A DNA stretch of 64,000 bases from NCBI GenBank assembly GCA_029204225.1, contig CM055107.1, positions 45,421,581-45,485,580 on the forward strand, written 5' to 3'. This document shows positions 11,178 through 63,740 of the stretch, in pieces. The notes under the pieces are model-generated. The model did no database searches, was not told the DNA's origin, and worked only from the letters and a program-made list of their open reading frames with translations. How positions within the stretch are numbered: the first letter of the stretch is position 1; every line of letters starts with the position of its first letter. This stretch comes from Diphasiastrum complanatum. Its lineage: Eukaryota; Streptophyta; Lycopodiopsida; Lycopodiales; Lycopodiaceae. The position numbers were made by a program, and so were the translations under genes.

Positions 11178-11621
11178 GTTTTGATTTTTGTTTTGTTAAT
11201 TTTTTTCACACACACCTTCTTGGCAGAAGGTGTGTGTAAAACAAGGTAAATTTTTTTACATGCAACTTCTAGCAACAAGAAGTTGAAGGTAAAAAACTCT
11301 TTGCCATCTTTGTCCCACAGATTCTACTGTGGAAGGCTGAAGCCATCACCATTTTTTTTGTCAAAGAGTTGAAAATGATATTTTTTTTTTTTTTTTTTTT
11401 GTTTTGATTTTTGTTTTGTTAATTTTTTTCACACACACCTTCTTGGCAGAAGGTGTGTGTAAAACAAGGTAAATTTTTTTTACATGCAACTTCTAGCAAC
11501 AAGAAGTTGAAGGTAAAAAACTCTTTGCCATCTTTGTCCCACAGATTCTACTGTGGAAGGCTGAAGCCATCACCATTTTTTTTTTTTTTTTTTTTTTTTG
11601 TCAAAGAGTTGAAAATGATAT
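11178..11621. repeat. Tandem duplication, two copies of about 223 bp with internal hairpins
   Basis: Copy 1 is about 11178-11400 and copy 2 about 11401-11621; they are nearly identical apart from the length of poly(T) tracts. Each copy has two clear stem-loops: CACACACCTTCT..AGAAGGTGTGTG and CAACTTCT..AGAAGTTG, plus a shorter CACAG..CTGTG. No coding capacity. Confidence 0.85.
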
Positions 11622-40815: not shown

Positions 40816-41640
40816 AGTTTTTAATAAGTTCCTTTATGATTTTGCTTTTACTTGGTTGATGTTTAACTTTGATGTAGCAAGTAGAAAGGAAGAGAATTTT
40901 GCTCCAAACCCTTTCTTAAGAAACAAAACAAAATGTAATTTTTTATTGGATCGGATTATATATTTATATATGATCTGGTTTCACCATCTATGTCTATTAA
41001 TGGCTAAAAGCATGTTTTGGTGGTTCTAAAAAAGAACCCATTTTCCATAGTACCTTTTGGTAGTATATGTCAATCTTTGTGGATTTTATTACTCACAATT
41101 TATATTTCCAATACAATACTTATGGTTATACATTTCTCACTTTTTGGAGGAAGTGATAGGTCTCACGAGTTAATGCAATGAAGGCGTCCTTGACAATCAT
41201 CAGCATACTCATCACATGGGCCTACTTTATCTAATTTGAATTTGGATAATAAATGCTTTGCCCTCCAAATAATCAATTTAGTGCTATCCTTGCTTTCTGC
41301 TATCAGTGAACATATCGTTGCTATCTGCTATGCTCAGTTCACATTGCTATCTTGCTTTTTGCTACCAGTTCTTCTACTATCTTGCTTTCTGCTATCAGTG
41401 AACATATCATTTGCTATGATCAGTTCACATTGCTATCAGTTCATCTACTATCTTGTTTTCTGATATCTTGCTTTCCACTATGATTGCTTTCTGCTATCAA
41501 TTCATTCCAATTTGCTTTCTTGCTTTCTTGCTTTTTTCTCGGTTCATTGCTATCGTTCATTTATGCTCTCAAAACATTTCTATTGTTGCATTCTACTATC
41601 CTTTCTTTCTATTGTCGTGGCTTTCTCGACCATCTTTCGT
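40816..41640. repeat. A+T-rich DNA with a CTATCTTGCTTTCTGCTATCAG minisatellite-like patch
   Basis: 41275-41610 repeats CTATC, TTGCTTTCTGCTATCAG and TTCACATTGCTATC in irregular order, possibly the promoter side of the gene starting at 41646. The open frames across it are repeat-encoded. Confidence 0.6.
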
Positions 41641-41929
41641 AAAAGATGAAGACACCTACAGGGAGGAAGTGCAAAGTTGCCTCTAAGGCCAGCCTCTAAG
41701 GCCAATGATGAAAATTCTGAGACATCAAGCACACCTCTCAGCATGCATAAACGACCACGGACCAACTACCATGATGGATCACCAGCTAGGACGGGTGTCA
41801 TGGATCAATCCGAGACCACACATTCACAGCTCGACGAATCGTTTGAGAGGATGGATGCTGCAGTCGGCGATCGTTCAAGCCACAAGAGAAAGAGTAAATT
41901 ACATTATAGGATTCTGTCTATAATGAATT

Positions 41930-42905
41930 TCGTTACTTTTAGCACTTTTAGTATTATGGTAGTAATTAGCTGCTTTTGGTCCTTAATTTACAACTATAGC
42001 TAGTTTTAGGTCTTAATCGACTATTTTAGTTGATTTTGGTACTTAATTTCGTACTTTAGCTGTTGTTGATACTTAACTTGGTACTTTAGCTACCTAAAGT
42101 ACTTAATTTGGTAATTTAGATATTGTGGTAGAAATTTGCTGCTTTTAGTACTTTAGCTGGATTTGGTACTAAACTGGTACTTTGTTACTTTCGGTACTTA
42201 ATTTAGTACTTTAGCTAATTTTGGTACTTAAGTAGTACTTTAGTTACTTTGGTACTTAATTTGGTAGTTCTGGTAGTAATTAGCTGCTTTTGGTATAAAT
42301 TTTGTACTTTGGTACTTTATCTAATTTTGGTACTTACTTACCTTGGTGCTTTCTTTGCTTTTAGGGTCTAGGGTGGTACTTTAGCTGCTTTTGGTACATT
42401 TGGTACTTGGTACCAAGTTGCTTTTGGTACTTGGTCTAGTACTTAATTTTGTATTTTGGTACTTTATCTGGTACTTACTTAACTTGATACTTTATTTGCT
42501 TTTGGTACTTAATTTAGTACTTTAGCTACCTTTGGTACTTAAGTAGTACTTAACTTGGTACTTTTTCTGATTTTGGTAGTTTTAGTAGTTTGGTATTATG
42601 GTACTAATTGGCTGCTTTTAGTTTTTAATTTAGTATTTTTGGTACTTTTTGGTGCTGTTGGTACTTTTGGTACTTTGGCTACTTTTGGTACTTTTGGTAC
42701 TTTTGATATTATGGTAGTAATCAGCTGCTTTTGGTTCTTAATTCAGTACTTATGGTACTTTAGTAATTTTGGTACTTAATTTATTACTTTAGCAGGTTTT
42801 TGTACATAACTTGGAATTTTAAAAAATTGCTTATGGTACTTAATTTGGAAGTATAGCTTCTTTTGGTACTTTATTTGGTTATTTGGTACTTTCTATGTGA
42901 GGATT
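41930..42905. repeat. GGTACTT repeat array filling intron 1
   Basis: About 1 kb of irregular repeats of TTTTGGTACTTAATTTGGTACTTTAGCT-type units (core GGTACTT, with ATTATGGTAGTAATTAGCTGC interludes). Open frames here are repeat-encoded. Confidence 0.92.
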
Positions 42906-43812
42906 TACAGTGAATAGTGTGTGTTATAATTAACACTCTGTTTCGTAGGAAAAAACAAAATGGCTGAGTACCCAATCTTGTGGAAGTTCTGCTACTCAGC
43001 CAAGGAACTTCATGAAGAATATGGCTTGATCCTAGAGGGCAAACTGGCAGAAGACCTACTAGACACTGATCTGCCAGACAGTCAGTGGGTTACGGTCTTC
43101 ATGCTGGGATACAAAAAAATGCTAAGATATATCTTAACCAACTGCATCCACAATTTGTGGATGAGTGTCATCTGCTCTTCCACAAGGTGCAGGCTTCTCC
43201 ATCCTACAACAAAATCACAACCAGATTCGCCAAATGCTATGCCTTTGAGCGCTACAAGGCTGCCAAATTGGACCCTGCCTATCACAAGATAGCATGGGCG
43301 AGATTTGACGAGAATGTAATTGCAATGTGCAGCAGCAAGAAGGACTGCCTACAGAAAAAGTTGTACTTGGAACAGGGCTAACAGGCCCTCTCAGAGTGGG
43401 CAACCAGGATTTGGAGACAAGAGAGAGTACTCCAGCAAGTTCGGAGGTGAGGACAGTATGTCCCATGTTGCTCTGTCCTCTCCAGGATATATGCCTGAGG
43501 TGGAGGCGATGAATCAGATAGTTGCAGAAAGATCAGGGTGGATGCTTGCAAGGCTGTCAGAATTGAAGGACAACATTCGAAAGAAAAAGGAAAAACTACT
43601 GGTCAAGCAAGGTGAAACACGGTCGTTTAAGTAATCAAGGACGAGATTCATGAGCTGGAAAAATGAGTGGTTGAGTTGCAGACACAGACTCCTCCCAATG
43701 AAGAGGAGATAAAAGAAGTGGATGATGAGCTCATTTTGACAAGACGGATGCTAAAAAAAGTTGAAGTGCAAACGGATGCCCAGTCCCTAAGAAGGGAGGC
43801 TGTAGAGGAGGA

Positions 43813-44326
43813 GGTAAATTTTTTGGTAGTCTTCCATTTTCTGTTTGGTACTTTTCATTCTTTTGAAGTTTATGAACACGTTGTGGTCGTTATAATTAAA
43901 CCTTTGGAGCTTTTAATAATTTTCATCTATTTTTTTGGTACTTTTATGGTGTTTTTGGTACTTTTTGTACTTTTGGATTATACTTTTATGATGTTTTTGG
44001 AACTTTTATGGTGTGTTGTTTTTTATACCCTAGATTTATACTTTTATGGTGTTTTTGGTACTTTTGGTACTCTGGATTCGTTTTTTTATATTGTTCGACA
44101 TTTTCTATACAATTTTTGGTGCTTTTAAGATTCTGTTTGGTACTTTTGGTACTTCTGGGTTCGTTTATTAGTATTGTTTGGCACTTTTATGCTTTGCTTG
44201 GTAGTTTTTTTTAAAATGCTTGATAGTTTTGAAGCTATTGTATAGCATATACAATGTTGGCTATTGTTTGGTACTGTTGTTTATTGTTTCGCTGCTATTT
44301 TGTAATAATTCGGATTTTCATTGTAG
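43813..44326. repeat. GGTACTT repeat array filling intron 2
   Basis: About 0.5 kb with the same GGTACTTTT core in the next intron of the same gene, plus a short echo after exon 3 (44690-44710). The 153-codon frame 43667-44128 reads through exon into this array and is not a separate gene. Confidence 0.9.
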
Positions 44327-44785
44327 AGGGAATACAAAAACCTGGAGTCAGATTGGAAGGATGCTCAAGGGCACACTGATTTTGTGAATCTCATGCAAGA
44401 GAGGATTAGCCGGGAGCACAGATTCACTTTGTTCCCGAGACCCCACGTGGTGGGTGGGGTAGACTATATCCACACCCTTGGGTTTTGCATTGCATGCGGC
44501 AAGTCATTGGACTCCACCTTTCTTTTCAGATCATTCAGTTTTGCTTGCGGACATTCTTGCCATCCATTATGTCTTGTTGTGACCATAACCACCAAAGACT
44601 TTTATGTGAACCCAGGGTGCAACAAGAAGATCCCCAAGGAGGCCAGGGCTTGGGCTCACAAGGGGCTTGAAAAGAGTAAGTTTTTTTTGGTGCTTATTGC
44701 TTTGGTACTCTTAAAGTATCCCAACAACGGTATTTGTTACTCTGGAGAACCCTACATTTAGACTTATAACACGTTTCAAAGTACC

Positions 44786-44987
44786 AGCTTTGGTTCTCTA
44801 TTCTTACATCGAAATCGGATATCACTATACCAGAAGCATGATACTCAACAAGGAGGTGAGTCTAAAATTTTGCAGAACCCAGTACATGGCAGTTGACATA
44901 TTTAAAAAGGAATTGAATCAAGAAGCACACAAGAATTTTTGTGCTATCTTGAATTTACAAATCAAGACATTCAAAGATCCAGATTAA
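44786..44987 (+). pseudogene. Copia RNase H C-terminal fragment
   Basis: Reads YIEIGYHYTRSMI, then FCRTQYMAVDIFKKELNQEA and HKNFCAILNLQIKTFKDPD before a TAA. This is the usual last segment of copia pol ('H I . . R Y H . . R . . . . . . . . A D I F T K . L'). It is followed at once by a G-rich polypurine tract and an LTR start. Everything upstream of it in the element is missing. Confidence 0.8.
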
Positions 44988-45480
44988 GGGGGGGGGTGTT
45001 GGATTTCTATTTTCTCCATCCCTATCTCTCTCTACTAATCTAGATCCATTCATTTTGCTATTGTAAATATTCTTACAATCTGTAGAAATGCAAGGAAAGA
45101 CGTGATAGTCTACATCGACATAACCGACATTGACTTTTCTTGACAAATTGTTTTGAGCCCGACTTCGACGTCCACATCATCGACTTCCTCGACATCGAAG
45201 TCTCCGATGTTTAATCAAAGACAAACTACGTCTTCGACTTTCACGTCATGTTGAAGTAGTTTTGATCTTCCTCTCTGTTATTACAGAGTTTTATTTCAGA
45301 AAGATCGCGACTCTATTCAGCATTCAAACTGTATTCTCTTCACGATTGCATGATTCCTATTCCAATAATTTGAGTTGTCGATGTCGTCTTGAATGCTCAT
45401 TTTCATTCATGTTCAGGGTGCTTCGTACTAGCGGATTAATCATTTATAGATTAAATCGTTTTATATGACTGGTAACACTG
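44988..45480 (+). repeat. Polypurine tract and LTR of a TGTTGGA copia family
   Basis: AAGGGGGGGGG (about 44987-44997) directly precedes TGTTGGATTTC (44998). The LTR interior has many CGACNTCGAC units (45110-45250). The 3' end is uncertain, perhaps near 45472 (GGTAACA). Its start resembles that of the sequence at 55861. Confidence 0.65.
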
Positions 45481-46425
45481 TTCGATTTTTTTGCTCTAAT
45501 CACTGCATGTGATACAACGCTTCCGCAAATCTAAACTCTGTAATCAAGGTAATTTGTGCATGGCTAGGGAATCGACTTAGTTGATCCAGCAACTTTGAAG
45601 TTGTGATCAGTAGGACAGACTTCAAAGAGTTCAAAGTCGGTCTAATTACTAAATCGATATCGAGGATTCCTTGTTGCTACATTTTGTTGCAACAGAAATT
45701 GAAGGTTGATCCACCTGTTGAATCCCAGCAAAAGACTCACTCTATCATTGTCGAGTGATAACATATTCTTGGAAAAAATTTTGACGCGTCTGAATACAAT
45801 GCCCTATGTTATTGGCTTTTAAAGAATAGAGTGTGAGAATAGTACTTTTCATGTTGAGTGTTCTATGTCTTTTAGTGTGAAAGTCTGTTTTTTTAAAATG
45901 AATTAGGTAACTTCTTGACAATAACTTACTGCTTCCTTTTGTTAGAAGTATTATAATAAATTAGATGATGAGGTGATAGGATAAGATGCAACATTAGAGA
46001 AGTTCCAAAATAAAAAAAGACCCTTTGTAAAAATACTTTTATTTTTTTTCTCTAGTTTCGACCGCCACCAGGCCCAATCAAAATGCACAGATTTGAAATC
46101 TACGTAACATAGTTCAAATTAACTGAGAAATAAAAATACAGTATAGAAATCTTTGAAATTTGTGTTCAGACAGCATGGACTTATCCCAATGGTTTCTTCT
46201 TCCTGTCCGACACGTGCTAATCTGCCCGACGTCAATACCTCAAGTTAAATTTACTTAACTATGCTAGTTAGTATAATAAAATTTGCTAACCGTACTAGTT
46301 ACTGTTATAGAAATATTGTATGTATAGTTACTTAAAATATGGGATACACAATAATTGTGACTATGGTGACATTCACATTAGATTAAATGTGATATGAAAA
46401 ATTGAAATTAAGTATCATATCAGAG
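45481..46425. other. No gene seen
   Basis: A+T-rich, no motif. A phrase AAATTTACTTAACTATGCTAGTTAG and related CTAACCGTACTAGTTACT occur near 46250-46310. Confidence 0.5.
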
Positions 46426-46429
46426 AGAT

Positions 46430-47690
46430 TTGGGCGCCCAAGCTTTGAAAATAACAATGGCAAAGAGACCCAGATCTACAGTCGAGTATGTGATTCTTTA
46501 CAATGAGAAAGATGAAGCTGATAACTGGAAGCCGACAAAATATATGAAGAATTCATGGGTGTTGCTGCATCCATCATCAAAGGGCAATTTTCGACAAAAG
46601 AAAAGAACAAAAATGACATACAAATCTTATTGAAAAGCAAAAATTCTGGAGTTTAAAACCACCTCGGGAGGTCATTCGATATCAGAAGGTTTAGTACAAC
46701 ATGTATATATGCATTCAGAAATCAAAGTACATGATATCAATCCTCATGATCATCGAATATGTAATTGTAAGTATATCAAAACATATGCACTCTACAACAA
46801 TCATAAGTGATTTTCTTTATTGATGCTCTTCATATTATGATTTAATTGCCTCAACATTGTTTTTTTCTTTCAGATTTATATCCATCATGCATAAGTGAAT
46901 GAGAGCCAGCACAATCACTTGTAGGAATATTGGACGTGATTCACTCTGATGTTGAAAAACTGCAATACAGAAGAAGAAGTCCAAAGGAACTTGCAGATTG
47001 TGGTATCTATTTTTATGAATCTTTATATACACCACAAACGGATGGAGGTTTTGGCAAGCTTGAAGCAATTCCATTGCCTAGTTTTCAGAGTGATGAGTGG
47101 CCTACTCTTGATAGTATTGTTTCTGAATCCTTGCGATGCAAGCTACTCATTGATATTATAAATGCTATGAAGATAAGCACAGGCTCAAAAATTGTTCACC
47201 TGAGTAGCTTTATCTCATTGCATATATTTGTTGAATTTTTCTCAAGTGCTAGTGTTCATAGGACACCAACTTTATTTGTTTGCAAGGATTTATCACATGA
47301 GACTTTGTCAGATCTCATGGATCAAGACTGGGATAGTAAAACAAATAATGACATAGAATGCAAGATTAAAAAGTCTTTAATGATCTTTCGTTATCATATC
47401 GAAAAGCAAATGCTCAGTCTCACATTTAGCTATCAGAGATACAAGAAAATTGAAGGTATGTGGCTACCACTGGATCAAGACTTTGAGCTAAATGGTCACA
47501 CAAACCGAATGGAGGTAAATGATTATCTACAATGAGGAATATTTGACTATGGTTGAGGTGGAAGAGCATTGGAAGCTTGATTTTGACTATGGTTGAGGTG
47601 GAAGAGCATTGTAATCTTGATTTTATCAGAACAGAGCTCGTGCTATTACAAACCAATCTACCAACATATTTCAGATTTATAATCAACGGA
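46430..47690 (+). pseudogene. Unrecognised gene-like segment with internal 40-bp duplication
   Basis: Two open frames look coding rather than random: 46430-46633 (67 codons; KRPRSTVEYVILYNEKDEAD) and 46930-47535 (201 codons; VIHSDVEKLQYRRRSPKELA, later GMWLPLDQDFELNGHTNRME). Between them is an intron-like A+T-rich stretch ending CTTTCAG (46873). Downstream, a 40-bp tandem duplication (47542-47621) breaks the continuation (MVEVEEHCNLDFIRTELVLL, then PTYFRFIINGRL). I recognise no domain. No promoter evidence. Confidence 0.35.
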
Positions 47691-47699
47691 AGACTCGTA

Positions 47700-48480
47700 A
47701 GTACTTTATGTTTAATGCCATCTCAAAATAGTACAAAATCATTGAAAATGACATAATTTACAATTGCACATTCATTAATATTTGTCATGTCACAGATGCA
47801 AAAAAGATAGGAGCTGATAATGTGCTGCAAAGATCTACCTACAACAATCACCATTGTGGAAGAACAATAGTTCAAATAAAGGTTAGTAAAAATCTATGTA
47901 TAGACTTTTTTATTCAATAAATGAAAGCCCAAGCTGGGCATCAATACACGTATTTTGTGCTCCCAAATTTATAAAATGGAGCAGCATATGATATACCAAT
48001 GTATATTTCTCTATGAATTCTATACATGTGCAATCTATTTCTGTTCTATGCTATCTGTATTGTTCTAATCTTTATTTAGTATAATTACATCATCTTTTGC
48101 ACCATCATCAACAACGGGAGGTTGAAGTCTTGCCCTGGCCCGTATGCTTAGGATAATTTCTTGTCTAAATTTGTACACCTGGCTTGATGTGTACTCATGA
48201 AGTGTAAACTGCAAGATAAACATTCATGTATTAGTAATGGCTAAAAACATCAACAAAATAGAAAACTAATCACGATTCCAAAAATAAGAATAGACAAAAT
48301 TAATTATCTTAGAAATATCAACATCTTTCTGAAGGATGAATCATTCAAAAATTATTTTGTATTATATAATGTGTACCACACCCACAGTTGATTGAATCAT
48401 TTTGCTGGGACGACTGCAAAAAAATTTAGCACACAAGAAATCAATTAAGAAACAGAATGAATTAGAATGAAACAAATACA
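47700..48480. other. No gene seen
   Basis: A+T-rich with short frames; nothing supported. Confidence 0.5.
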
Positions 48481-49262
48481 TTAGAATACTGATTTCAAAA
48501 TGTTGTTAAGAAAGACAAAATTTACCTCCAAACTAACGATCTGCCAGTCCACTGAATCGAGAACATATATTGGAATATGTTTACTTAAATATGGCAAGTA
48601 TATATCTACATCCTTATGCATATTGCTAGTCGAGTTCATCTTGACACAAAATCCTTTAACAATATTATTTATAGATCTCTTAATAGATATCAGGTTTAAA
48701 TTCCAATGGTCACTGCAAAATAAGATAGAAAGTCTATTAGCTGCAATTCTAAGAACTATTTCCATTGATAATGCCAATGATAAAGCATTAAACAACAAGA
48801 AGCATTTAACATATTTTACTTGGTATGATAAGACATGATTAGGTATTTTGTTGTTGGTGTGAATCCACTAGTCAGACACTATGACAATGTGTCGTTATTC
48901 TCCTTGAAGGCCTGAAGCAAAAAGTTACTGAACACCAGCAATTCATTGGATGAATCTCTTGCAATTTCATATTGTAGGAGTGTAATCCCAGACTCTATCA
49001 CAAGATCACTGATAGAAGCCCATCTATTTTTTAGATCCAACAATCAACAACTCTATAATCTATACTAAAGTCAAGTTCCTCTATTCTAAAACAAAATGGA
49101 ATATCAATTTTATCAACAACATCGGCTATGTCCTTCTCAAATTTAAGATAATCATCGGAATCTATATATGTATAAATATTTGAACGAGGAGGAGGTGGCT
49201 CAGCAGTATCTACAAGAATTACAGGAGTATCCAAAATCGATGTAGCTATATTTACAACCTTA
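48481..49262 (-). pseudogene. Unrecognised minus-strand coding remnants downstream of the H3-like segment
   Basis: 49234-49031 (DTPVILVDTAEPPPPRSNIY, then KFEKDIADVVDKIDIPFCFR) and 48798-48481 (HKDVDIYLPYLSKHIPIYVL, then DWQIVSLEVNF) look like exons of one minus-strand gene, with similar coding sense between them (WASISDLVIESGITLLQYEI, about 49025-48965). I could not assign a family. They follow the H3-like fold on the same strand and may belong to the same former gene. Confidence 0.35.
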
Positions 49263-49299
49263 TTTAGGGCAATGATTATCTATATTTGCATCCAGGTTA

Positions 49300-49800
49300 G
49301 GCTGCACAGAATCGGTGGTATTTACTCTCCTTAATTTCTTCGAGGCTCTCTTGGGGGCTATTTGCTTCCTAGGGTGCTTGGTAGGAAGATCAGTCCAATC
49401 TAGAGGAACAGGTCTGGGAGCAGTAGGCTATGTGTAACTTGCAAAATCTCTCTCTCATTCTCATCAGTAGTTGAAAGTCCTTAGGCATAATGGTGAGTCT
49501 CTTAGAATGAATAGCAAGCAAAAATGAATCTTCAAAAAAAAGGCTCATATAATACCCAACAACTTTCTGAAGGCACTGGAGAGCAGAGGGTCTGAATCTA
49601 ACAAGCTGATCGAGATCATTTCTAGTTATGTGATAGACGGCATGGTAGAATGAAACTTTGGGAATCAACAGAGCGGTTGATCTCTGATACTTACGAATAT
49701 CAGAGAGCCACCTGCTGCAATTGCACCTTCTAGATCTAGTCGGAGGTGTAATGGCAATCGTAGGGATTGAGGATGAGCCAACATAAAAGAAATCCTCTCG
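49300..49800 (-). pseudogene. Histone H3-like fold, followed by an H3-tail-like stretch
   Basis: Minus-strand frame from about 49800 to 49390. It reads WLSDIRKYQRSTALLIPKVS (H3 aN: IRKYQKSTELLIRKLPF), then VRFRPSALQCLQKVVGYYM (H3 a2: RFQSSAVMALQEA) and FEDSFLLAIHSKRLTIMPKD (H3 loop 2: [20 protein letters not shown]). The loop between aN and a2 is one residue longer than in canonical H3, a trait also seen in centromeric H3. After the core, in another frame (49387-49329), comes KHPRKQIAPKRASKK, which resembles the H3 tail block KAPRKQLATKAARKS. In a normal H3 the tail comes before the core. No in-frame ATG was found upstream (an ATG near 49820 is one frame off). It could be a decayed H3/CENH3 copy or an H3-fold domain of a mobile-element protein. 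Confidence 0.75.
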
Positions 49801-49829
49801 TTTGCTTTCTCCTATCCATAGAAGTATAC

Positions 49830-50670
49830 TGAGGGATATCGCACTTGTGCGTGACGACTAGGAAAGAAGGGAAGGATTCTGAAGCGTTCGCAGAGGAGCG
49901 ATATGTATAGAAAGAACGTACGGTATATCGGACCTATGCGAGCCAAATATCAGAGAGATCTCTGAATTTAGAAGAGAGGCGCACAAGTCCGATATGAGGA
50001 GACATATAAGCAAAAATATCGGACCTGTGCGCATGAAATGCAGTAGGCAGAATATCGATTACGAAGGTGGCACACAAGTGCAATATGCGGAGAGAAAAAA
50101 AAAGGAAAAAAAAAATCATTGGAGTTTGTGATTTTATATCGCAATTCGCACATGCGAAATAACGTCTTGTCGCACGTGCGGACTGTCAAGTCATCAAAAA
50201 GTGACATGTGGTGACAAGTCAGCGAATGATCATTCAACACATGTCAGGTTGTCATTTCATACATGTGAGATTGTACGGCGTAATGAGAGAACAACACGTG
50301 TTGTCCATCTAACTAATGAACATGAGACATGTGTCCTTGTGTCATTTCACACGTATCCAAGTGTCAGCTCACAAGTGCTAGTGCTTGCAAACCAATCGAA
50401 AACAAACACGTGTCTGTTGATCGTTGACCACACAAAATTCACTATAAAAGACACGAAATCTGATTAATTTTTTGTTTTTTTCTTTCTCGAATTTCACGGC
50501 ATATCGCTCTTGTGCGCGCACTTTGTTATACATTTTATTCCTCGATCCCTACTTGCGCACAAGTGCAATATTCATGTGCTACATGTCGTACATATCCCTC
50601 TTGTGCATGATCTTTACAGTTAGTTTTGTTTTGTTTTGTCTCCCTCGTGCATAGGTGCAATATCTGGTAT
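49830..50670. promoter_or_regulatory. Intergenic region packed with GCAC..GTGC palindromes and ACACGTGT motifs
   Basis: Lies between minus-strand and plus-strand gene remnants. About ten versions of ATATCGCACTTGTGCG occur in both orientations near 49836, 49924, 49984, 50017, 50071, 50137, 50169, 50500, 50554, 50592 and 50650. Between them (50200-50440) are ACATGTCA / ACACGTGTTGTC / CATTTCACACGTA motifs of G-box type. This looks like a divergent control region or transposon subterminal repeats. No gene inside. Confidence 0.55.
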
Positions 50671-50679
50671 AGTGCCATG

Positions 50680-52087
50680 GCCTCTTCCTCATGATCTACA
50701 TGAGATTTGGGCCTAAGTTCATTTTTTACTAAATTTGGGATTATTGAAAATCTAGAATACTTCCACAGTCTATTTAGACCATATTTACATGTTTTTAAAA
50801 CTGCACAACCTAATTCTGACATATTTTATGAATATTATGTTAGATTCAGGGATATACTCAGTAAGCCTATTATCTCCATAGGTTCACTCTCGTACATGCA
50901 TTATACTGATCTTGTTCATTTCTTCTCATCTTTCAGATAGAGATTAGATAGAATGTTCTCCAAATTGTTTAATCTTTTTAAAAGCAGTTCAATGTGTCCT
51001 TACTGTAACATCCTCTGTTCAGTCATCTATTAAGGATATCAGTCACTTCCTAATCAACCTCCCTAATAAGGATAGTGACTTTATTGATGTAAATATTGAT
51101 GTGCTCCGAGATTCTTTTATTGGCCAGAATACATCTGCTGATGAATCGATCCCTATAGATGAGTCTAAATGTCTTTTCAATTTGCTAGTATATTATATAA
51201 ATGCGATGTATATTCTACTACAGCTGATTTATGTCAGTTTTTTGACTATCGTGAAGATGAGGTGCTATGTTTATTATTTGGCACAATTTCTGAATTCTCC
51301 GACTTTGTATATTTTGAAACAAATGACTTGTTACTGGAACTGATTATGATGATGAGGAGGGACTTATGACCGGTGAAGAGTGCTTGACTAAGACTTTATT
51401 AAATATTGCTGAGCATGGATGAGGCAGACCATCCGATGAAAAATTCATGGCATTTCAATCCCAAATGGGCTTCCCTTGTCCATCATTAATGCATTTCACA
51501 AATGATTCTACTTCAGTAGGTGGTCATAATATTGATCATCCTGATCTGGTTGCTGATGATGATGAAGAATGTGTAAGTGTTTAAACTTTCTTGCATTAGA
51601 ATGTTCTTAACTACTAAATGTATTTTTTATAAACATATTTCTTATTGCAGGATGCTCTCATAATTGATGACTTTGCTGCGAGACGAGGTGGTTACAAACA
51701 ACATGCATCCTCGTTCCAGAGGGATAGTGGACTTGGCCACTATCTTAGGCATTTTCTGAAGAATGAGATCTATATTGCTCATTTGAATCTGAGCCCAGTT
51801 GGGGAGAGTCTGATAATGGCAGTTAAAGCTTTATCATTTTATCTAGGAGGACATAAATTTGTAAGACAAATAAGATCATTTCTATCAAAAGATCTTATGT
51901 TTTGAACATTCTAGATTTTACTGATGGGAATGTTCCTTTAAGGAGCTCCCATTATTCATTGTACTCTACCTATATTGAACTTAGTGAAAATAAGGATAAT
52001 GCACATCTATTAGATGCATACTCTAGCGGAGAATTTTTTCATGACAATACAGCCATAGAAGCTAACACACAAGCTGACAATGAATAA
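50680..52087 (+). pseudogene. Unrecognised plus-strand gene remnant
   Basis: Coding-like pieces in changing frames: about 50700-50940 (DLHEIW.., HSLFRPYLHVFKTAQPNSDI), 51000-51200 (SDFIDVNIDVLRDSFIGQNT), 51370-51570 (TGEECLTKTLLNIAEHG, stop, GRPSDEKFMAFQSQMGFPCP), 51651-51903 after a TTATTGCAG acceptor (DALIIDDFAARRGGYKQHAS, then GLGHYLRHFLKNEIYIAHLN and VKALSFYLGGHKFVRQIRSF) and 51902-52087 (NILDFTDGNVPLRSSHYSLY to a TAA). No family recognised. It faces away from the H3-like remnant. Confidence 0.4.
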
Positions 52088-52399
52088 TGGACACTTTGTA
52101 TTTTTTTATAATACAATCAATACATTTACATTGAGTATTTCTCCTCTCTCTTGTTCCATGAATTTGCATGCAATTCTGAACATGTCACACATTTACATTG
52201 AGTATTTTTCCTCTCTTGTTCAATGAATTTGCAAGCAATTCTGAACATGTCATGATTTGATGACAATGATGATTGAATGTCTTTTTATCATCTACTCATC
52301 AATCATCTAATTTTATCTCCCTGTATGAACTTGCATGCTTTTCTAAACTTGTTGTATTGTGTGGACTTTGTTATATGTCGAGTCTGAACTCTGCGGTAG

Positions 52400-54093
52400 A
52401 ACCACTGAAACATTGACAAATGTAGTTTCGTTTTTCATTGGTTCCTCCATGTTGTGTATTTTGATGAAATGTTGCTCATGCTTGCCAATGTGACTTCTCC
52501 ATCCCTTTTGATGACCAGACACTCAAGCTTCCATACGTGTTTGCAAAAAATGTTGTATGATCTCTTAGTATGTGCTGCAGATGTCAAAACCATAATGTCA
52601 ATCTTATGTTTGGATCTAAATATATATGAAAAATTGAAAGCAACTTAAAGAATTTATACTAACCATGTAATGAGTGATGTGATTTTCTCCCCATGCTTTT
52701 GATACTACATTAACAAACTCAACACAAATCCTTTGTATGGCTTTCTTATCAATATCATAGTATTTATCCTTTTTTTTAAATAGCAATCATACTATCAAGC
52801 TTCTTCCATACATCAACTTTAGTACTCTAGTTTTGTCGTCTTTCTCGAAATCCTGAGTGGTAGCAATAATATATGTCCAGAGATTGAGTGTTGGATATTA
52901 GAAGCCTTACCAGTATGATTTGATAGAGACGCTTTTGCTCCTCCTATGCTTGGCTTAGTTGGCATATTCCCATTCTAATATGAAAGCTTTTCATCTTTTT
53001 GAATTTTGACATGTCTCTTATGAAGTCCTGCTTTTGATAAAACATCTTCTAATCAAGAGATAGCTTCCTTTGTTGATGATGCTAGCTTAGTATTCCAAGC
53101 AGAAACTATATGAAGATAAATGATCTTTTCTATTAATCTAACTTCTGCATGAAGAGTGCAAACATGCACATTTTTCAAGGGGATAGGTAGCACAGGCTAC
53201 CAGTTTGGATCTGCATATTCTCTAGTAATTCTTGTACTCCTACTAACATCTTTTTCCATTTTCATGCAGTACAAACAAGGGTGTTTTGATGTAGCACCTT
53301 GAGAGACATTATACATACATTTCAATGTTTTCAAATCACCTGCTAAGTGCCATTCAACATTGAAGTCTCCAACTCCTGGAACATTGAGAAGTCCTCCATC
53401 CATATGGTCCTTGATGATCCTAGGATAAGATGTCCTTGAGAATATCCATGATAATATATCATGATCCTCCTTCAGCACCTATCCAAAGAATTAATCAAAC
53501 TTAGTTGACAAAGAATTAATACTATTCAATTAATGTGATGTAATAATGAGGCTAGTTACTTGAAACGCTGCCAACCACCATATATCATTTTCTGACTGGA
53601 CACTGAATCTGAAATCTTCTTGGTCCTCTGTTTGTGATAGTGCACCATTCATGAGAGTTATACTAACTCTCTCCATCTTTAGCCCTTTCACAATTTTTGA
53701 CTCATCTAACTTAAGTACTATGACTATTTTGTCATTCACCTTTTAAAAGGTTATATCATAGAATGTGAGGATGTATCTCAGCAAGTAATTTAGATCAACA
53801 AATAAGTTGTTTGATGAATAATAGGATATCGATCTTCCATCAGTTTCATACACCTCCTCAATATGAAATGGAGTTCCAGTGATCTTATGCAAACCTATGT
53901 TTAATGTATCTCTCTCTTTCTTCAAGTGATGTGTCCTAGGAATTGGGACTTTTCTAATTTGAACTTGCTGAAAAGCTTCTCTAATTAGTTTAAATATTGT
54001 TGCATATGCTTCCATGCTAATACTTACAAAATCACAAGCACCTTGAATTATAGTCTTATCTAAAAAAATTTGAATGTCCACCATCAAAGACAA
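52400..54093 (-). pseudogene. Transposase-like (RNase H-fold type) gene remnant, intron-containing
   Basis: Minus-strand pieces in order: 54093-53743 (ATIFKLIREAFQQVQIRKVP, then RTHHLKKERDTLNIGLHKIT), 53739-53560 (KIVIVLKLDESKIVKGLKME, then SVQSENDIWWLAAFQ), a canonical GT..AG intron (53559-53479), 53478-53200 (EDHDILSWIFSRTSYPRIIK, then EWHLAGDLKTLKCMYNVSQG and ATSKHPCLYCMK), about 53180-53070 (PIPLKNVHVCTLHAEVRLIE) and near 52540-52440 (VWSSKGMEKSHWQ.ATFHQN). The order 'K.D..K......VS.T', 'GDLK.L....G..GATS..PC..C', 'LH...R..E' and 'S..G.EK.H' recalls a group of uncharacterised transposase-like proteins seen in cnidarians and other eukaryotes. Several stops and frameshifts. Assignment rests on memory of these motifs. 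Confidence 0.5.
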
Positions 54094-54099
54094 TGTGCC

Positions 54100-55318
54100 A
54101 ATCTATATAAGTATCCATGTCTCTTGTCGAGTGCAAGGATCTTATTACTCCTATTGATAATTCTACATTAATCAGACTCAAACTCCACCTTATGACCTAA
54201 ATCTATAATTCTACTTATTGATAACACATTTATAGAGAGTTTAGAAACATACAAGACTTTTGACAATAGTTTGAATTGACCATGCTAAAATCTTAATCTT
54301 ACAATACCTTCACCTTCGATAGTGTGAGTACTATCATCACCAAGATGAACATACTTCTTTGTGTTGTAAGACGTATAGGATTGGAAAATCTCACAATGAT
54401 TGGTCATATGTTGAATAGCTCCAGAATCTAGAAACCATGAATCATCGAATTCGAATATTTGTCGTTGACCATAAAAGCACCGTCATCCATTTTGACTTCA
54501 GGGGATGCTGTAACTGTATTTGCTTGTTGGTCAGTTTTCTTGGCTGCATTCTTCGCTTTGAGAATTCGGCAATCCTAGATCTCATGGTTATTGTGGTTGC
54601 AATACCTGTAAAAAAGCTTCTTTTTCAACGAACGTGGATTTGATGATTGTTCTTGATTTTGAGTCTGTTTCTGATTTGATGTAGACTGCTTGGAGCTTTT
54701 TTGCTTCTGTCGTTTTGAGCCCTTGTTGACATATAGAGCATGAGATAAAGAGGTAGACAAAGTGTCTTGACTTCTTCGATTATCTTCTTGTAGCAACATA
54801 GTGATAACTCTAGTAAGAGATAAATCTGAGTGTGTTATGATGATCATCACTCAGTTCTTATATGTAGAGGATAGGCTTGAAAGCAATGTCATAATTGTGT
54901 CTTGATCGTGTATGACTGTTCCAACAACGGCCATCTGTTGCAAGAGATTCTTAAACTGGTTAATATGATTCTGAAGAGAATCATTATTTGACATCTTGAG
55001 TCCGAATAATTTCCTTCAAAGATGTAACTTATTAGTTACGTCTCTCACATCACATAGTGAGCTCAGGATGTCCCAGACTTCTTTCAAAAACTTAGCTTGA
55101 GTATCTGATATATTGAGGATAATAATCGCGAAAGCTTTACCATCCTTTGATTTTCATTTTGAGTCTTCTGCGTCATCTTCAGGTTTCACTTCGATACGTG
55201 TAACAACATCTCACAACTCGTTGGAGATTAGCAAGGTCTTCATCTTAAATTTCCATAAATGATAATTGGATCCATTCAGCTTGTCTACGATAAGATTGGC
55301 TTTAGTTTGAGAATCCAT
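54100..55318 (-). pseudogene. Copia Gag, zinc knuckle and protease remnant
   Basis: Starts at about 55318 with MDSQTKANLIVDKLNGSNYH followed by LWKFKMKTLL (Gag), broken by several stops. 54850-54575 covers the Gag end and a Gln/Lys/Ser-rich linker before the knuckle (YRYCNHNNHEI.DC, with Tyr for the first Cys). Then in another frame near 54450-54290 the protease WFLDSGAIQHMTNH with intact DSG. It breaks off near 54095, where the transposase-like remnant begins. Confidence 0.82.
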
Positions 55319-56727: not shown

Positions 56728-57409
56728 TGTTAAAAATTCACAATTCTAGCTTGACTAGTTTTGGTCATATGACTTGTAAATAGTTAGATGGTCATGATGT
56801 GGCTTGTCACACGTGCCAAATATCATAGGATTCCATTCATAAGGATGTTCTCAAGTAGACCTAAGTGTTGGAACCTTTGGAATGAGTCCAAATTATGCTT
56901 AGATACAAGGGAGAAAAAATAGGAGCTATTTTTGGTAATTTTTGCATTGTTGAGGGATCTCCAAGATTCCAACCCTAACTTGGTAGGGATGAAAGATCCA
57001 CCAAAATTAGCATTAGGGATAGGTTTAGGGCTACTCATACCTGTCCAAAACCGTGATGGATCATGTATATATAGGTGATGATATCTCACCAAAATCAATC
57101 AAGCAATTTCATGTTTTTTCTCTCATAATGGTGCAATTGCTCTCTATGTTCATAATTGTTTGAGTACTTGTGATTACTAATGATTATAGGATTGAATGTA
57201 GGTCTGGTGTACAATACTCAGACTGTGGGGGGCCGTAATTTCACACGTGTGAAGCCTTCTTCAAGGATTTGGGCCATTTAGTGAGGTTCAAGCATAGATT
57301 TTTGATGGATTTTGATGGTTCAACTCGTGATAATCTTATGAAATCATAATCTATTGTTTCCCTCATCATTTCAAGTGTTTTAGGATCCTTATTTGCTGTA
57401 ATTTTTACA
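56728..57409 (+). repeat. 5' LTR of element C
   Basis: 682 bp. Promoter elements seen: TATATATA at about 57066-57073 and the palindrome TTCACACGTGTGAA at 57240-57253. The minus-strand frame 56823-57098 is duplicated in the 3' LTR and is not a gene. Confidence 0.96.
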
Positions 57410-57421
57410 TGGTATCAGAGC
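57410..57421 (+). other. Element C primer-binding site
   Basis: TGGTATCAGAGC directly after the LTR end TTTTTACA; initiator Met tRNA type. Confidence 0.97.
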
Positions 57422-59074
57422 CTAAAGGTTGAAATGAGCTAAATCCTTGGTTTTCATTCAATTTGATCACAATTTTTGATCTAAATCTTGTGTAGATTGG
57501 ATCTTAGCATCTAGTATTGATTCTAGAACTCAAAGTGAGTCAAATACATTGGAGATTGGTGTTGTGTGACTTCATTTGCAGGTGTTTATGATAAATTTTA
57601 CAGTTTTTAGGACAATAATGATTGTACTTTACAATCATAGAGAGTTATTGGTTGCTTAATCAATGAATCTATCAAGTTCTACACATTAGATCTTGATCTA
57701 GATTCACTACACTTGGATTTAAGCAAGAGCAATGGATCAACACATCATTTTTTAGTGAGAGCGGCTTCACACGTGTGGAGTACTGTCCACTGTACGGCCT
57801 GCACCTGAAACAACAAGTACAATGATACTAGATAGCAATCATGCATAAAAATCACAAGACAAATGACTAGAAATCTCACAAAAGTGTAGAGTGCAAAAGT
57901 CTCATCAATTTTCTTAGCAAAATGATGATCCTTTTATGGATCAAGTACATCCATGAGTCTGGTACAGTCCAGCAGGCCTTCACACGTGTGAAGAGTGCCA
58001 CATCACTCATATCTATCCATTTGATCCATCCTTGATCCTTATCCAATAGTTGACCTTCTAGAATATGACTAAAATCCAAAAAGCTAGTCTCCTAGAATAT
58101 AGGAATATTCCCTACAAAATAGGATCTAAGGAAAATGGTCAACTCTTATCTTCTAGTACTCTATACACACATGTGAACATCCACTTGCCATGTGGGAGCA
58201 TTTACTCATGCACATGCAAGGAAAAGCTAATTTGTAGGTGACTAGTCAACTTGACTAAAAACTAGTCAATTCATGTTCACACTAACTAGAATGATACAAA
58301 ATCAATTTGGATATATACAAACATGAAAAGTACATCCTTTCACACATGGGAACATGCTCCACACGTGTGAAATCATATCATCAACATATCAATATTTACA
58401 TGAACCAATGTCAAGTGAGAAGTGACAATTTTCAACAGTTTAGGTGTCTAAAACCAGAGGCAAAGTTGAATTCAATTCACATTACCAAGATAGCAAGTTT
58501 TGCTTGCTCCAAGCATTGATTTCTAAGCGAGTTTTGGAGGTGATTTCATAGAGGAGGCTTTTTAGCATTCAAGGAGAGGGAATATCAGAGTTTTGGGGAC
58601 TCTTCAAGGCTGTTCTAAGGTTTAGTATGCACCTCCTAAAGTGATTTAGGTTCAGTCCAACCATTGCTTGACTTATGCACCAAATTAGATCAATTTTTCA
58701 TCAATTTTGATCATTTTTTGCTTGTGATTGGATAGTAGATTGTGTTGCATCCTCATTAAGTTCCATTTAGCTCTTTTACAAGTGATTTTGGAAGTATATT
58801 AGGTTGCTGAAATTCACTCTTGATCAGATCATTTGGAAGCTTTAATGTTCTTTATAGAAAGTGGGGCAATTCTACTAGTATTGTCTACTTCAATCAAGCA
58901 AGTGCATTGTTTCTAGTATTCTATGATTTGATTTTGTTAGAGATCATTCTTAGATCTTTATAGGAAGTCTATTACTAATATTTTCAGGTCCCTAAGAAGT
59001 GGGATAAGGTAGACCTTCAATCAAATCAATAGAAGTAACCTTCATTTGTGTCAAGTCCTTGATTAGGAGACTAG
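57422..59074 (+). other. Element C leader
   Basis: 1.65-kb untranslated leader before the Gag ATG. It has three more CACACGTGTG motifs: 57767-57776 (in TTCACACGTGTGGAG), 57978-57993 (CTTCACACGTGTGAAG, a perfect 16-bp palindrome) and 58360-58369. No gene. Confidence 0.8.
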
Positions 59075-62000
59075 ATGGCATCTATAAATGCATATCTTTT
59101 GGATACTAATGAAAGGCTCAACAAAACTAACTATTCCATATGGAAAGTTAGAATGGAATCTATCATGATCATGCAAGATCTGATGGAAATTGTAAATGGT
59201 AAGGAGGGTGAACCTATTCATCCTCAAGAAAAAGCCAAATACATCAAGAGGTGCAATGTTGCACTACATTGCATAAAAATGAATGTTGCAAATGAACTCT
59301 TAAGAGAGGTAGGAGATTGCACTTCAGCTCAAGATGCTTGGGAGACTTTGCAAAAGGTCTATGAATCCAAGAACCAAACTAGAATGTTAGCTTTGAAGAA
59401 TCAAATCTATAGAAGCTATCAAAAGAAAGGAGAGAGTGCACATACTTTTGTCCTAAGAGTAAAGGAATTGAACAAAGAGCTAGCCTTTATAGGTGACCCT
59501 ATCAAGGATGAAGAGCTTGTTCAACTCATATTGAATGTACTAAGCTTTGAATTTGACAATTTGGTTCAGGGATATGCAATTATGGGTAAGCTACCTATAC
59601 TTGAAGAACTCCAAGGCACACTCATGGCCGAGGAATCAAGAAGGAGCCAAATGCAAGAGAGGATGGATAGGCTTTCCATACAAGGTGGAGATGACCAAGA
59701 TCTCTTCACCAAAGGCAAAGGCAAGTCCAAAGGCAAAGGATCAACATTCAAGAAGTCTACAAAGCTTGAGGATCAAGAAGGACCCCCAAAGGCATCTCCA
59801 TCAACCATCAAAGTCAAGAAGGACAAATCAAAGGTGAAGTGCTACTATTGTAGCAAGATGGGGCATTATGCCTCGGAATGCTTCAAGAGGAAGCAAGATC
59901 AAAGCCAAGCCAACATGAGCAAAGAGGAGGAGGAGGAGAGTTCACATGAGGACTCTCTCATGATGTCCATATTTTCTTCAACAAGCTTCAAAGGAGAAGA
60001 TCCTTGGTGGATTGACTCGGGTGCTAGTTCACACATGACTAGTAAAAGGGAGTTTTTCTCTTCTCTCTTATCTTATGATGGACCTATAAAGTCTATCTAT
60101 ACAGCAAATGATGAAGCTTGTAAGATTGAAGGAGTTGGTAGCATTCCCCTTTGCTTAGGATCTTCCAAAAAGATCAACATAGAAGGTGTTTTGTACATTC
60201 CTACAATAACAAAGAATCTACTAAGTGTTGGCCAAATGGTAGACAATGGTTTCAATGTTGACTTTGCTTCAAATGAATGTTTCATCAAGAAGAAGGGTAA
60301 GATAGTGGCTAAGGGCACTAGACTTGGCAAAATTTATAAGTTGGATGCATTTGTGGATACTAATGTTGTCATGTTGGCCGAGAAGAGCAAGATATCTACT
60401 TTTACTTTATGGCACAAAAGACTTGGACATGTCAACTCGGGTTACATGGAGGCTATGATCAAGGAGGAGTATGCTTTAGGCCTACCAAGGTCTATTGGGA
60501 AGGAAGACAAGGTTTGTGAAGCTTGTGCCTTATCCAAGGCACATAAGAAGGTGTTTCCTAACTCCATCACAAAGTCATCTCATCCTCTTGAACTCATACA
60601 CTCGGATGTGCACATTGCTAGCACCAAATCTAATGGAGGTTCATCCATGTTTTTAACCTTCATTGATGACTACTCAAGATATTGTTGGGTGTTCTTACTT
60701 TCCTTCAAGTCTCAAGTATTTGATACTTTTGTAAAGTTCAAGTTGTTTGTGGAAAAGCATCATAATCATAGCATCAAGATTCTTAGAAGTGACAATGGTG
60801 GAGAATTCATCTCCAATGAGTTCAAGGCCTTTTGTGAGGAGGAAGGGATCAAGAAAGAGACTTCTTGTCCTTACAATCCTCAACAAAATGGAGTTGCTGA
60901 AAGAAGGAATAGAACATTATGTGAATGTTCTAAGGCTTTAAGATTAGATGCTTGTTTGCCCAAATCCTTTTGGGGTGAGTCTCTTGTATGTGCAAACTAC
61001 TTGATGAATAGGGTGTCTTGCAAAGCAATTGAAGGCAAAACTCCTTATGAGATGTTGTATGGAAAGAAACCCAATCTTAATCACTTGAAAGTTTTTGGGT
61101 GTATATGTTATGTGCATGTGCCATTGGAAACAAGAACCAAGGAGGATCCATCTTCCACAAGAGGGATCATGCTTGGATATGCAAGCTCAAGCAAGGGCTA
61201 CAAAGTCTATCTCCCATCCTTGAGCAAATTTGTTGTTTCAAGGGATGTCATCTTTGATGAACATCATATGCATATGCTTGAAGAAGGCTCAAGTGCTCCA
61301 ACAATCAAGAAGAAGATGGCCGAGGAGCAAGATCTTGGTTTTGAGGAGGAGCTCATGGAGGAGCAAGCGCCAAACCCACCTATCACACCAAGGAGATCTT
61401 CAAGGGCAAAAGTGGAGCCATCAAGGCTCACATATCAAGGCAAAGGAAAGCAAGTTGAGGGTATCTCATCCACTTCTTATGATTTATCTAGTTTTGAGGA
61501 ACCGTCTATTGTTGAAGATGCATTGAACTCCAAAGAATGGTATAAAGCTATGTTGGATGAGTATGATGCCTTGATTGAGAATGAAACTTGGTTGCTTGTT
61601 GAGAGACCTCAAAGGAATGTAATAGGATGCAAGTGGGTCTTCAAGCTTAAGTTGAATGCAAATGGGAGTGTTAACAAACATAAAGCAAGATTAGTTGCAA
61701 AAGGTTATGCTCAAGAGAGAGGGATAGACTATGAGGAAACTTTTGCACCCGTGGCCAAGATGGTCACAATAAGGCTAATCATTGCACTTGCATCACATTT
61801 TGGATGGATTCTATGTCAAATGGATGTCTCTAATGCTTTCTTGAATGGTTTTTTGGAAGAAGATATCTATATGGAGCAGCCACAAGGGTTCATCAAGCAT
61901 GGAATGGAGAACAAAGTATGCCATCTCCAAAGAAGCATCTATGGCTTGAAGCAAGCCTCGAGATCTTGGAATTCAAGACTACATTGCTATCTTATTTCAC

Positions 62001-63039
62001 TTTCTTTTGTTCAAAGTGAATATGATCCCACTCTTTACATTAAGTTTGATGATGTTGGTATTGTACTTTTACTCATTTATGTAGATGACATCATCATTAG
62101 TGGAAATAGTGTTGATGGTATTGAAAAAATCAAGATAGATCTATCCTTAGAGTTCAAGATGGTAGATCTAGGGTGTCTTCACTTCATCTTAGACATAGAA
62201 GTACTTAGAGGGTCTGATTTTATCTTTATAAGTCAAGTAAACTATGCTCAAAGTCTTTTGAAGAATTTTAAGATGGAAGTATGCAAAAGTGTTGACACAC
62301 CAATGGAGCAAGATGTAAAAGTGCCAAATGAAGATGATGAAAGATCCTTCATGGACATCACTTTGTTTAGGCAACTTATAGGTTCCTTAATGTGGATCAC
62401 TATAACTAGACCAGATCTTAGCTTTAGTGTATGTAGGTTGAGCCAATCCATGCAAAAGCCATTGAATATCCATTGGAAAAAGGCTAAGAGGATTCTAAGA
62501 TACATCTCGGGTACATTGGATTTTGGGATTCTATATAGAGGAGATGTGATTAACCTTCATGCATTTAGTAATTCAGATTTTGCAGGGGACAAGAGGGATA
62601 GGAAATCAACAAGTGCCTATTCAACTTTCATAGGAGAAGGTGTGGTTTCATGGCTTTCAAAAAAGCAAGAAACTATATCTCTATCTTCAACCGAGGCCGA
62701 GTACAAAGCTTTGACAACCACTACAAAGGAGGTACTTTGGATCAAGAGATTATTGGTGGAACTAAAGTGGATTCAGAGGAGGCACCAATCATCTACAATG
62801 ACAATATATCAGCCCAACACCTTGCATCTAACCCAATCTTCCATGCAAGATCTAAGCACATTGAGATATGCCATCACTTTGTGAGAGAAATGGTGCAAGC
62901 CAAGGAGATTGCTTTGGAGCATGTTCCAAGAAATGAATGTGTAGCTGATCTACTTACTAAACCACTTCAAAAGACACCTTTTATGAAGTTCAGATCATCA
63001 CTTGGAGTGATTAGTAAAGCAATGATTGAACCAAGCTAG
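59075..63039 (+). CDS. Copia Gag-Pol polyprotein of element C (one frameshift in RNase H)
   Basis: Single frame from ATG 59075: Gag (UBN2-type; NYSIWKVRMESIMIMQDLME at the start), CCHC knuckle CYYCSKMGHYASEC (256-269), protease DSGA (314-317), HHCC pre-integrase (from His447), integrase with D511, D573, E609 (exact 35-residue DD35E spacing; LRSDNGGEF and QQNGVAERRN), RT with the YVDD box at 1002-1005, and RNase H (DRKSTSAYS, SSTEAEYKAL). The first frame runs to a stop at 62884, but near 62764 the sense passes to the next frame (VDSEEAPIIYNDN) and ends at 63039 with VADLLTKPLQKTPF. Loss of one A in GAACTAAAGTGG explains it. All catalytic residues are present, so the copy was recently active; whether it can act now depends on that frameshift. 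Confidence 0.96.
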
Positions 63040-63042
63040 ATA

Positions 63043-63053
63043 GTGAGGAGGAG
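63043..63053 (+). other. Element C polypurine tract
   Basis: GTGAGGAGGAG immediately before the 3' LTR; plus-strand priming site. Confidence 0.93.
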
Positions 63054-63735
63054 TGTTAAAAATTCACAATTCTAGCTTGACTAGTTTTGGTCATATGACT
63101 TGTAAATAGTTAGATGGTCATGATGTGGCTTGTCACACGTGCCAAATATCATAGGATTCCATTCATAAGGATGTTCTCAAGTAGACCTAAGTGTTGGAAC
63201 CTTTGGAATGAGTCCAAATTATGCTTAGATACAAGGGAGAAAAAATAGGAGCTATTTTTGGTAATTTTTGCATTGTTGAGGGATCTCCAAGATTCCAACC
63301 CTAACTTGGTAGGGATGAAAGATCCACCAAAATTAGCATTAGGGATAGGTTTAGGGCTACTCATACCTGCCCAAAACCGTGATGGATCATGTATATATAG
63401 GTGATGATATCTCACCAAAATCAATCAAGCAATTTCATGTTTTTTCTCTCATAATGGTGCAATTGCTCTCTATGTTCATAATTGTTCGAGTACTTGTGAT
63501 TACTAATGATTATAGGATTGAATGTAGGTCTGGTGTACAATACTCAGACTGTGGGAGGCCGTAATTTCACACGTGTGAAGCCTTCTTCAAGGATTTGGGC
63601 CATTTAGTGAGGTTCAAGCATAGATTTTTGATGGATTTTGATGGTTCAACTTGTGATAATCTTATGAAATCATAATCTATTGTTTCCCTCATCATTTCAA
63701 GTGTTTTAGGATCCTTATTTGCTGTAATTTTTACA
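63054..63735 (+). repeat. 3' LTR of element C
   Basis: 682 bp, same length as the 5' LTR. TTCACACGTGTGAA at 63566-63579. Confidence 0.96.
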
Positions 63736-63740
63736 TCTAT

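Follow-up and report, generated by a model that had tools for sequence, protein, structure and literature searches.

The locus

The window, meaning the whole stretch of 64,000 nucleotides of Diphasiastrum complanatum that was analysed, contains a truncated transposon copy in which a broken gene for a histone H3 variant lies between two genes called A and B, with a transposase-like gene beyond B. The features are the following.

45992-54091, no strand assigned: truncated copy of the family 1 transposon, left end intact, about 1.3 kb missing on the right
45992-46026, plus strand: left terminal inverted repeat CATTAGAGAAGTTCC..., two mismatches against the 15-bp family start
46430-47738, plus strand: gene A, broken, with a homologue in family 2 (32% over 254 amino acids)
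48819-49819, minus strand: gene of the H3 variant, interrupted by frameshifts, with its start codon at 49819-49817 and its C-terminus encoded up to 48819
48819-49270, minus strand: new domain at the C-terminus of the H3 protein, split over two frames in the window copy
49335-49379, minus strand: basic linker block KHPRKQIAPKRASKK, off-frame relative to the core in the window, in frame in intact copies
49444-49716, minus strand: H3 core (alpha-N to alpha-3), open, identified by Pfam and PDB matches
49836-50663, no strand assigned: divergent H3/B promoter; its palindromic sites resemble CGCACAAGTGCGATAT, alternate in orientation and were identified by count against shuffles
50620-52084, plus strand: gene B, broken; part of it has a homologue in family 2 (29% over 105 amino acids)
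52814-54090, minus strand: transposase-like gene, 5' part missing, exons with VLKLDE and HLAGDLKTLKCM...CLYC

The H3 core lies in a minus-strand frame of 155 amino acids (49390-49857). A first-pass annotation, made from the letters alone, had described minus-strand sequence matching alpha-N, alpha-2 and loop 2 of H3, and the peptides it quoted are contained in this frame, which matches the Pfam Histone profile PF00125 with E=1.2e-18 (68 bits, cut-off 26.4). In the PDB, 176 distinct sequences were matched at E<=0.01; H3 chains lead the list at about 1e-17, and nearly all of the 60 matches listed are named histone H3. Taken together, the Pfam and PDB matches place the H3 fold of the window far beyond chance, so that the profile search proposed as a check returned significant H3 similarity and not the absence of it. 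The same annotation had noticed a loop one residue longer than in canonical H3, and the HMMER alignment locates the extra residue in loop 1. Its H3-tail-like block downstream was also recovered, as KHPRKQIAPKRASKK at 49379-49335 in another minus-strand frame. Frameshifts hit the window gene in the tail, 3' of the core and again in the C-terminal region. The core of an intact copy (L006) matches PF00125 with E=2.4e-25, and a Pfam scan of the C-terminal domain of an intact copy returned no family above cut-off.

Architecture of the H3 protein

In intact copies of family 1, core and basic block are read in one frame of about 330-340 codons. Core followed by block is therefore the normal gene order, and the window copy changes frame through decay. 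The protein consists of a short H3-like tail, the H3 core, a basic linker and a new C-terminal domain of about 120 residues; the open frames of L006, L009, L010, L054-L061 and L072 start with MDRRKQTRRDFF... and continue through the core and a linker resembling TK(R/H)PRKQ..APKRAPKK to this domain. Many of the 150 scored genome matches to the window protein have stops inside the match. Two explanations had been offered beforehand for the unusual order, namely a tandem pair of H3 or CENH3-like copies reduced to one core and one tail, or a longer protein, perhaps from a mobile element, with an H3 fold as one of its parts. The genome was searched for other copies with the core before the tail-like block, as had been suggested, and the order recurs in the family copies that were read. 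The one-frame copies of about 330-340 codons and their place in an element with terminal inverted repeats bear out the second explanation, and the first gives way to intact copies with one core followed by one block. A single exception with two cores was seen on contig C558 (L093, 21000-24800), where a local tandem duplication of 639 bp at 96% puts two H3 cores into one element; both of its copies keep the order of tail, core and block.

How closely the block resembles an H3 tail was assessed by shuffling, with a canonical H3 tail sequence entered by hand and a likeness, to the K14-K27 part, that had been noticed before testing. Of 3000 shuffles, 4 matched or beat the score of the 55-residue window frame. 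The corresponding numbers were 12 and 42 of 3000 for two intact family 1 copies and 305 of 3000 for the homologous stretch in family 3, which is not significant. The tail resemblance of the block is modest and strongest in the window copy; the tail-like character first described stands for the window and does not extend to family 3, and the linker with the block is the least constrained part of the gene (dN/dS 0.63). On account of the latter two results, the idea that the block is a relic of a displaced H3 tail is only weakly supported by the sequence. We read the block as a basic linker that may act as a nuclear signal. An AlphaFold model of the full H3 protein was poor (pLDDT 34.4) and was set aside. 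The core alone reached a pLDDT of 59.4, and its best Foldseek matches were nucleosome H3 chains at a TM-score of about 0.42.

The transposon and its copies

The family 1 element is about 9.4 kb long and bounded by terminal inverted repeats (TIRs) of 35 bp. Its left end at 45992 is sharp: among 43 matching rows, the window, its 99% duplicate and three short internal matches were set aside, and 37 of the 38 long rows left start at query positions 1989-1994 (at most three bases off) and the other at 2015. On the right side, all five other copies read continue beyond the position equivalent to 54091, which was accordingly rejected as the right end of the element. In other copies the right end is the left end inverted; a Helitron reading, considered for the CTAA-like end, was dropped after this inverted right end had emerged.

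The genome search covered 1.74 Gb in 5176 contigs. The histone profile yielded 6325 and the window protein 6606 rough first-look candidates. For each query 150 were scored, and all 150 scored matches to the window protein had E<=3.4e-54. Among the matches listed, copies are present on all 23 large contigs. The exact 35-bp TIR occurs at 1138 places (576 forward and 562 reverse) and a 36-bp pattern from the core, with up to three mismatches and segmental duplicates included, at 686 places (336 + 350); the control gave 0 for both. Contig C1 holds 84 of the 100 TIR places listed, many of them at 65.0-66.7 and 95.0-100.6 Mb, and this clustering means that part of the count of 1138 is probably due to segmental amplification. 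Some pairs within these clusters lie 28-33 kb apart and perhaps mark a large amplified unit.

Both TIRs are present in five of the copies read (C1:20.72, C1:48.37, C2:29.74, C16:3.67 and C7:9.31 Mb). An intact right TIR was found in one copy (on C16) of a set of five and in one (on C7) of a set of eight, and three pairs came from the first 100 TIR places. Four of the elements measure 8.1, 9.5, 9.4 and 9.3 kb. The flanking DNA differs between copies, and in its TIRs and dispersal the unit matches a TIR DNA transposon. A 3-bp target-site duplication (TCA) was seen in one of the five (C1:48.37 Mb) and none in the other four; an 8-bp duplication was present in none of the five. This pattern argues against insertion in a plain CACTA- or hAT-like manner. 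Separately, the 10 kb around the window element (44629-54631) are repeated in inverted orientation at C16:30617300-30627299 with 99.5% identity, which reflects either a segmental duplication of recent date or the assembly.

The gene order is displayed in full by the C2:29.74 Mb copy (L051-L053), with TIR, A (+), H3 (-), B (+), transposase-like gene (-) and TIR, several of its frames being broken. Pfam and PDB searches with gene A gave no match of note. A BAH-like fold suspected for this gene was not upheld, as nothing convincing appeared in Pfam up to E=10 or in PDB profiles. The transposase-like gene has no match among Pfam or PDB profiles, and Pfam scans of the frames of the element returned no hAT family. 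Its VLKLDE and HLAGDLKTLKCM...CLYC stretches resemble RNase-H-like transposases, and we infer its role as transposase from its place in a TIR element.

Selection on the genes

The H3 gene is under purifying selection, strongest on the core. In 12 family 1 copies picked for long open frames (the frameshifted L073 and the end of L058 left out), pooled dN/dS with bootstrap over codons was 0.17 (0.10-0.27) for the core, 0.39 (0.20-0.85) for the tail, 0.63 (0.39-1.00) for the linker with the basic block and 0.34 (0.22-0.56) for the C-terminal domain. With the frameshifted stretches kept (13 copies), the values were 0.18, 0.39, 0.66 and 0.39. Synonymous divergence in the 12 copies was 0.39 in the core and 0.18-0.24 elsewhere. 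Including broken copies, with two to 14 loci each and two places represented twice, dN/dS was 0.25 for the core, 0.61 and 0.38 for gene A, 0.35 and 0.33 for gene B, and 0.51 and 0.63 for the transposase-like exons. The core of family 2 gave 0.39 (11 copies).

With these results, we regard it as very probable that the locus belongs to a TIR transposon that encodes a selected H3 variant. Two simpler origins were rejected, namely an ordinary processed H3 pseudogene, in view of hundreds of copies, the core dN/dS of 0.17 and a separate group in the tree (86/89), and capture of H3 by a retrotransposon, as Copia and Gypsy elements are nested or neighbouring and the H3 unit itself has TIRs.

Related families and ancestry

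Three further families in the genome carry H3-like genes. Family 2 (L011-L013, L062-L067, L070 and L071) was found at 94 + 100 places, with 0 in the control. In its protein a poly-proline stretch precedes the H3 core, and the C-terminus lies shortly behind the core; N-termini were seen in two copies as MARTKQTARDPR (L011) and MARTKQTARGPR (L012). Family 3 (L068, single copy) starts with MARTESTARAT... and has a core and a C-terminal extension, and family 4 (L069, single copy) has a divergent core. DNA similarity between families 1 and 2 is absent in the two family 2 copies compared. Their proteins are related, with 32% identity over 254 residues for A (E=1.5e-32), 29.5% over 105 for B (E=6e-9) and 48% over 97 for H3, and the order A-H3-B is common to both. 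In L011, L012 and L013, compared with L053, both H3 and B have the opposite orientation with respect to A, which no single inversion accounts for. TIRs and a transposase-like gene were not found in the family 2 stretches read, which are broken by retrotransposons.

All N-tails read in families 1-3 lack the K9 of canonical H3. The 15 family 1 copies with an open tail frame (two same-place duplicates dropped) all have D in its place; two family 2 tails have D and G, and the family 3 tail has A. Families 1 and 2 retain K4 but family 3 does not, which means that its retention is not general. The family 1 tail has about 36 residues and does not present the canonical H3 arrangement of K4, K9, K14-K27 and K36. 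In the alignment, families 1 and 2 have kept H113, R116, D123 and the loop-2 KRVT, which we take to be H3 tetramer and DNA-contact residues. The H3.3 exons of the host are of plant type and, like a telomere-like GGTTTAG repeat, point to a plant. Compared with the canonical H3 and H3.3 of the host (L074-L076), the transposon H3s share the core fold and the loop-2 KRVTIMPKD, and families 1 and 2 also the K4 context of the tail; they differ by lacking K9 and the rest of the tail, by the longer loop 1 in family 1 and by the C-terminal extension in families 1 and 3.

Centromeric H3 has a longer loop 1, and the long loop had been read as a hint of CENH3. However, the extra residue is confined to family 1 and missing from families 2, 3 and 4, so that the long loop does not show a CENH3 origin. 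The tree was built from 18 rows with 108 columns, and the 13 transposon rows in it group together (86/89, branch not starred). The best tree places them with CENH3 and not with H3 at 90/26, and with the rows held with H3 the p-AU was 0.077; four of the five reference rows were entered by hand. The phylogeny asked for at the outset groups the transposon rows and does not separate H3 from CENH3 ancestry. No exon of host CENH3 was recognised among the 150 scored genome matches, which are H3 genes and transposon copies as far as could be judged.

Promoter site array

Between the starts of H3 and B, about 0.85 kb contain nine matches to CGCACAAGTGCGATAT with at most three mismatches, where 0.31 are expected and 0 of 100 shuffles reach nine; elsewhere in the 64-kb window no site passes this threshold. 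A weaker tenth site lies at 50647-50663. The steps of the array are about 55 and 36 bp (period 91), with six sites beside H3 and three or four beside B. The promoter of L053 has nine sites with the same steps (expected 0.04), and that of L016 has repeats at a spacing of 88-92 bp. By analogy to the VANC targets in the available parts of PMC5735166, we read the array as candidate binding sites of a regulator. No CGCACAAGTGCGATAT-like sites were found in the family 2 copy L013. A second repeated motif, around ACACGTGTG, lies in the middle of the H3/B promoter (L053:4005-4193, L016:4245-4466).

Possible role of the H3 variant

Transposon proteins are known that remove DNA methylation or counter silencing. 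Our main reading, tentative with a probability of roughly 0.45, is that the transposon brings its own H3, which would form nucleosomes on the element that lack K9 methylation and would be guided there by the array. The variant would pair with H4 of the host and be incorporated into nucleosomes on the transposon's own DNA. Its short tail would be unable to carry methylation of H3K9 (or of K27 in the tail), and as a consequence the element would remain expressible. A partner encoded by the transposon (A, B or the C-terminal domain) might bring the variant to its place via the palindromic array. One-frame copies, the TIRs and complete copies, the core dN/dS, the kept contact residues, the absence of K9 and the site array were counted in favour; the loss of K4 in family 3, the poor structure models, the lack of sites in L013 and the assignment of the transposase by position count against it. 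In addition, the loss of K9 could simply reflect the loss of the tail. The wider picture, in which an H3 was long kept and diversified in a transposon lineage with an unrecognised type of transposase and forms private K9-less nucleosomes steered by a partner via the array, seems rather unlikely to hold in all its parts.

The main rival of this nucleosomal reading is a structural role in transposition, in which the H3 fold, alone or together with H4, would wrap DNA or dimerise as part of the machinery. The C-terminal domain fused to it, which is under selection (dN/dS 0.34), the retention of the core despite the short tail and the co-occurrence of H3 with A and B in two families fit such a role, which is conceivable and on balance doubtful, since the residues for H3-H3' and H3-H4 contacts are kept and would be superfluous for mere DNA binding. 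A CENH3-derived protein that steers insertion to centromeres, or that hijacks centromeres or H3 chaperones, is improbable. The best tree with CENH3 (90/26, weak), the p-AU of 0.077 with H3, both with reference rows mostly entered by hand, and the longer loop 1 of family 1 point to it, whereas the canonical loop length of families 2-4 and the presence of copies on all 23 large contigs, among the matches listed, do not.

That a host H3 was captured and is passively decaying, similar to the RIP-inactivated copies of Pseudocercospora, would agree with the many broken copies, that of the window included; with a core dN/dS of 0.17 and persistence across families that share no DNA similarity, we give this little credence. 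Histones are carried by some large DNA viruses, and several orphan genes in one unit could likewise suggest an endogenous DNA virus in place of a transposon. However, the unit of about 9.4 kb has TIRs and lies in different flanks, two single-protein IMG/VR scans, which reach close relatives only, found no relative, and Pfam scans of the tested frames gave no viral domain above cut-off, so that a virus is very improbable; in L053, the single complete copy inspected, no capsid, polymerase or packaging gene was recognised. The chance that a tandem pair of ordinary H3 or CENH3 genes left one core and one tail is next to nil. The different frames of core and block in the window would suit it and C558 illustrates that local duplication of an H3 part can occur, but alignment to intact copies, with core and block in one frame, refutes it for the window copy, and both C558 copies keep the order of tail, core and block.

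Relation to known systems

DNA transposons that carry H3 are already known in fungi (PMC3538342, PMC6710886), and we compare them as far as the available parts of these reports go. In Pyrenophora tritici-repentis, a hAT transposon of about 5.6 kb with near-identical copies carries the H3-like gene H3L, with 10 long-form copies in the reference genome (PMC3538342). Both are TIR DNA transposons with an H3-like gene and a further reading frame beside the transposase, whereas the element described here has a putative transposase that fits no recognised family, divergent copies that number in the hundreds, several families and a selected, much altered H3 with a C-terminal domain. In Pseudocercospora fijiensis and relatives, an H3-carrying hAT element of about 9.5 kb with TIRs and 8-bp target duplications is associated with 784 H3-like copies, and all extra H3 copies are inactivated by RIP (PMC6710886). 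The size (about 9.4-9.5 kb), the TIRs and the hundreds of H3-like copies agree; unlike there, open copies exist here, the core is under selection and five complete copies have no 8-bp duplication. Among the open-licence PubMed Central matches listed, judged by titles and abstracts, there was no H3-carrying DNA transposon of a plant and only the fungal cases appeared.

A candidate functional parallel is the VANDAL transposon of Arabidopsis, whose anti-silencing protein VANC acts in a sequence-specific manner and causes loss of DNA methylation, and whose targets often form tandem repeats within the transposon (PMC5735166). Anti-silencing and repeated sites would be common to both, with targeting and effect here being putative; in the available parts of that report the system works without a histone, whereas here a histone variant would be employed. 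Fungal DNA transposons that encode TET/JBP dioxygenases, with a proposed escape from silencing (PMC12730594, as far as available), also carry a chromatin-related gene, there for a methylcytosine enzyme and here for a histone variant. If the H3 variant is kept by selection, a selfish element itself supplies building blocks of chromatin, and it becomes a testable question whether a K9-less H3 at a locus protects this locus from heterochromatin.

Other features of the window

Beyond the transposon, a Copia element occupies 56728-63736, with direct repeats of 683 bp (56728-57410 and 63054-63736) at 99.4% and a gag-pol frame of 1269 codons between them (59075-62884); it is seemingly young. Long degenerate tandem repeats with a GGTACTTT-like unit lie at 41345-44065, and a 224-bp tandem repeat (1.8 copies, 99%) at 11172-11583. 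A telomere-like GGTTTAG repeat was also noted.
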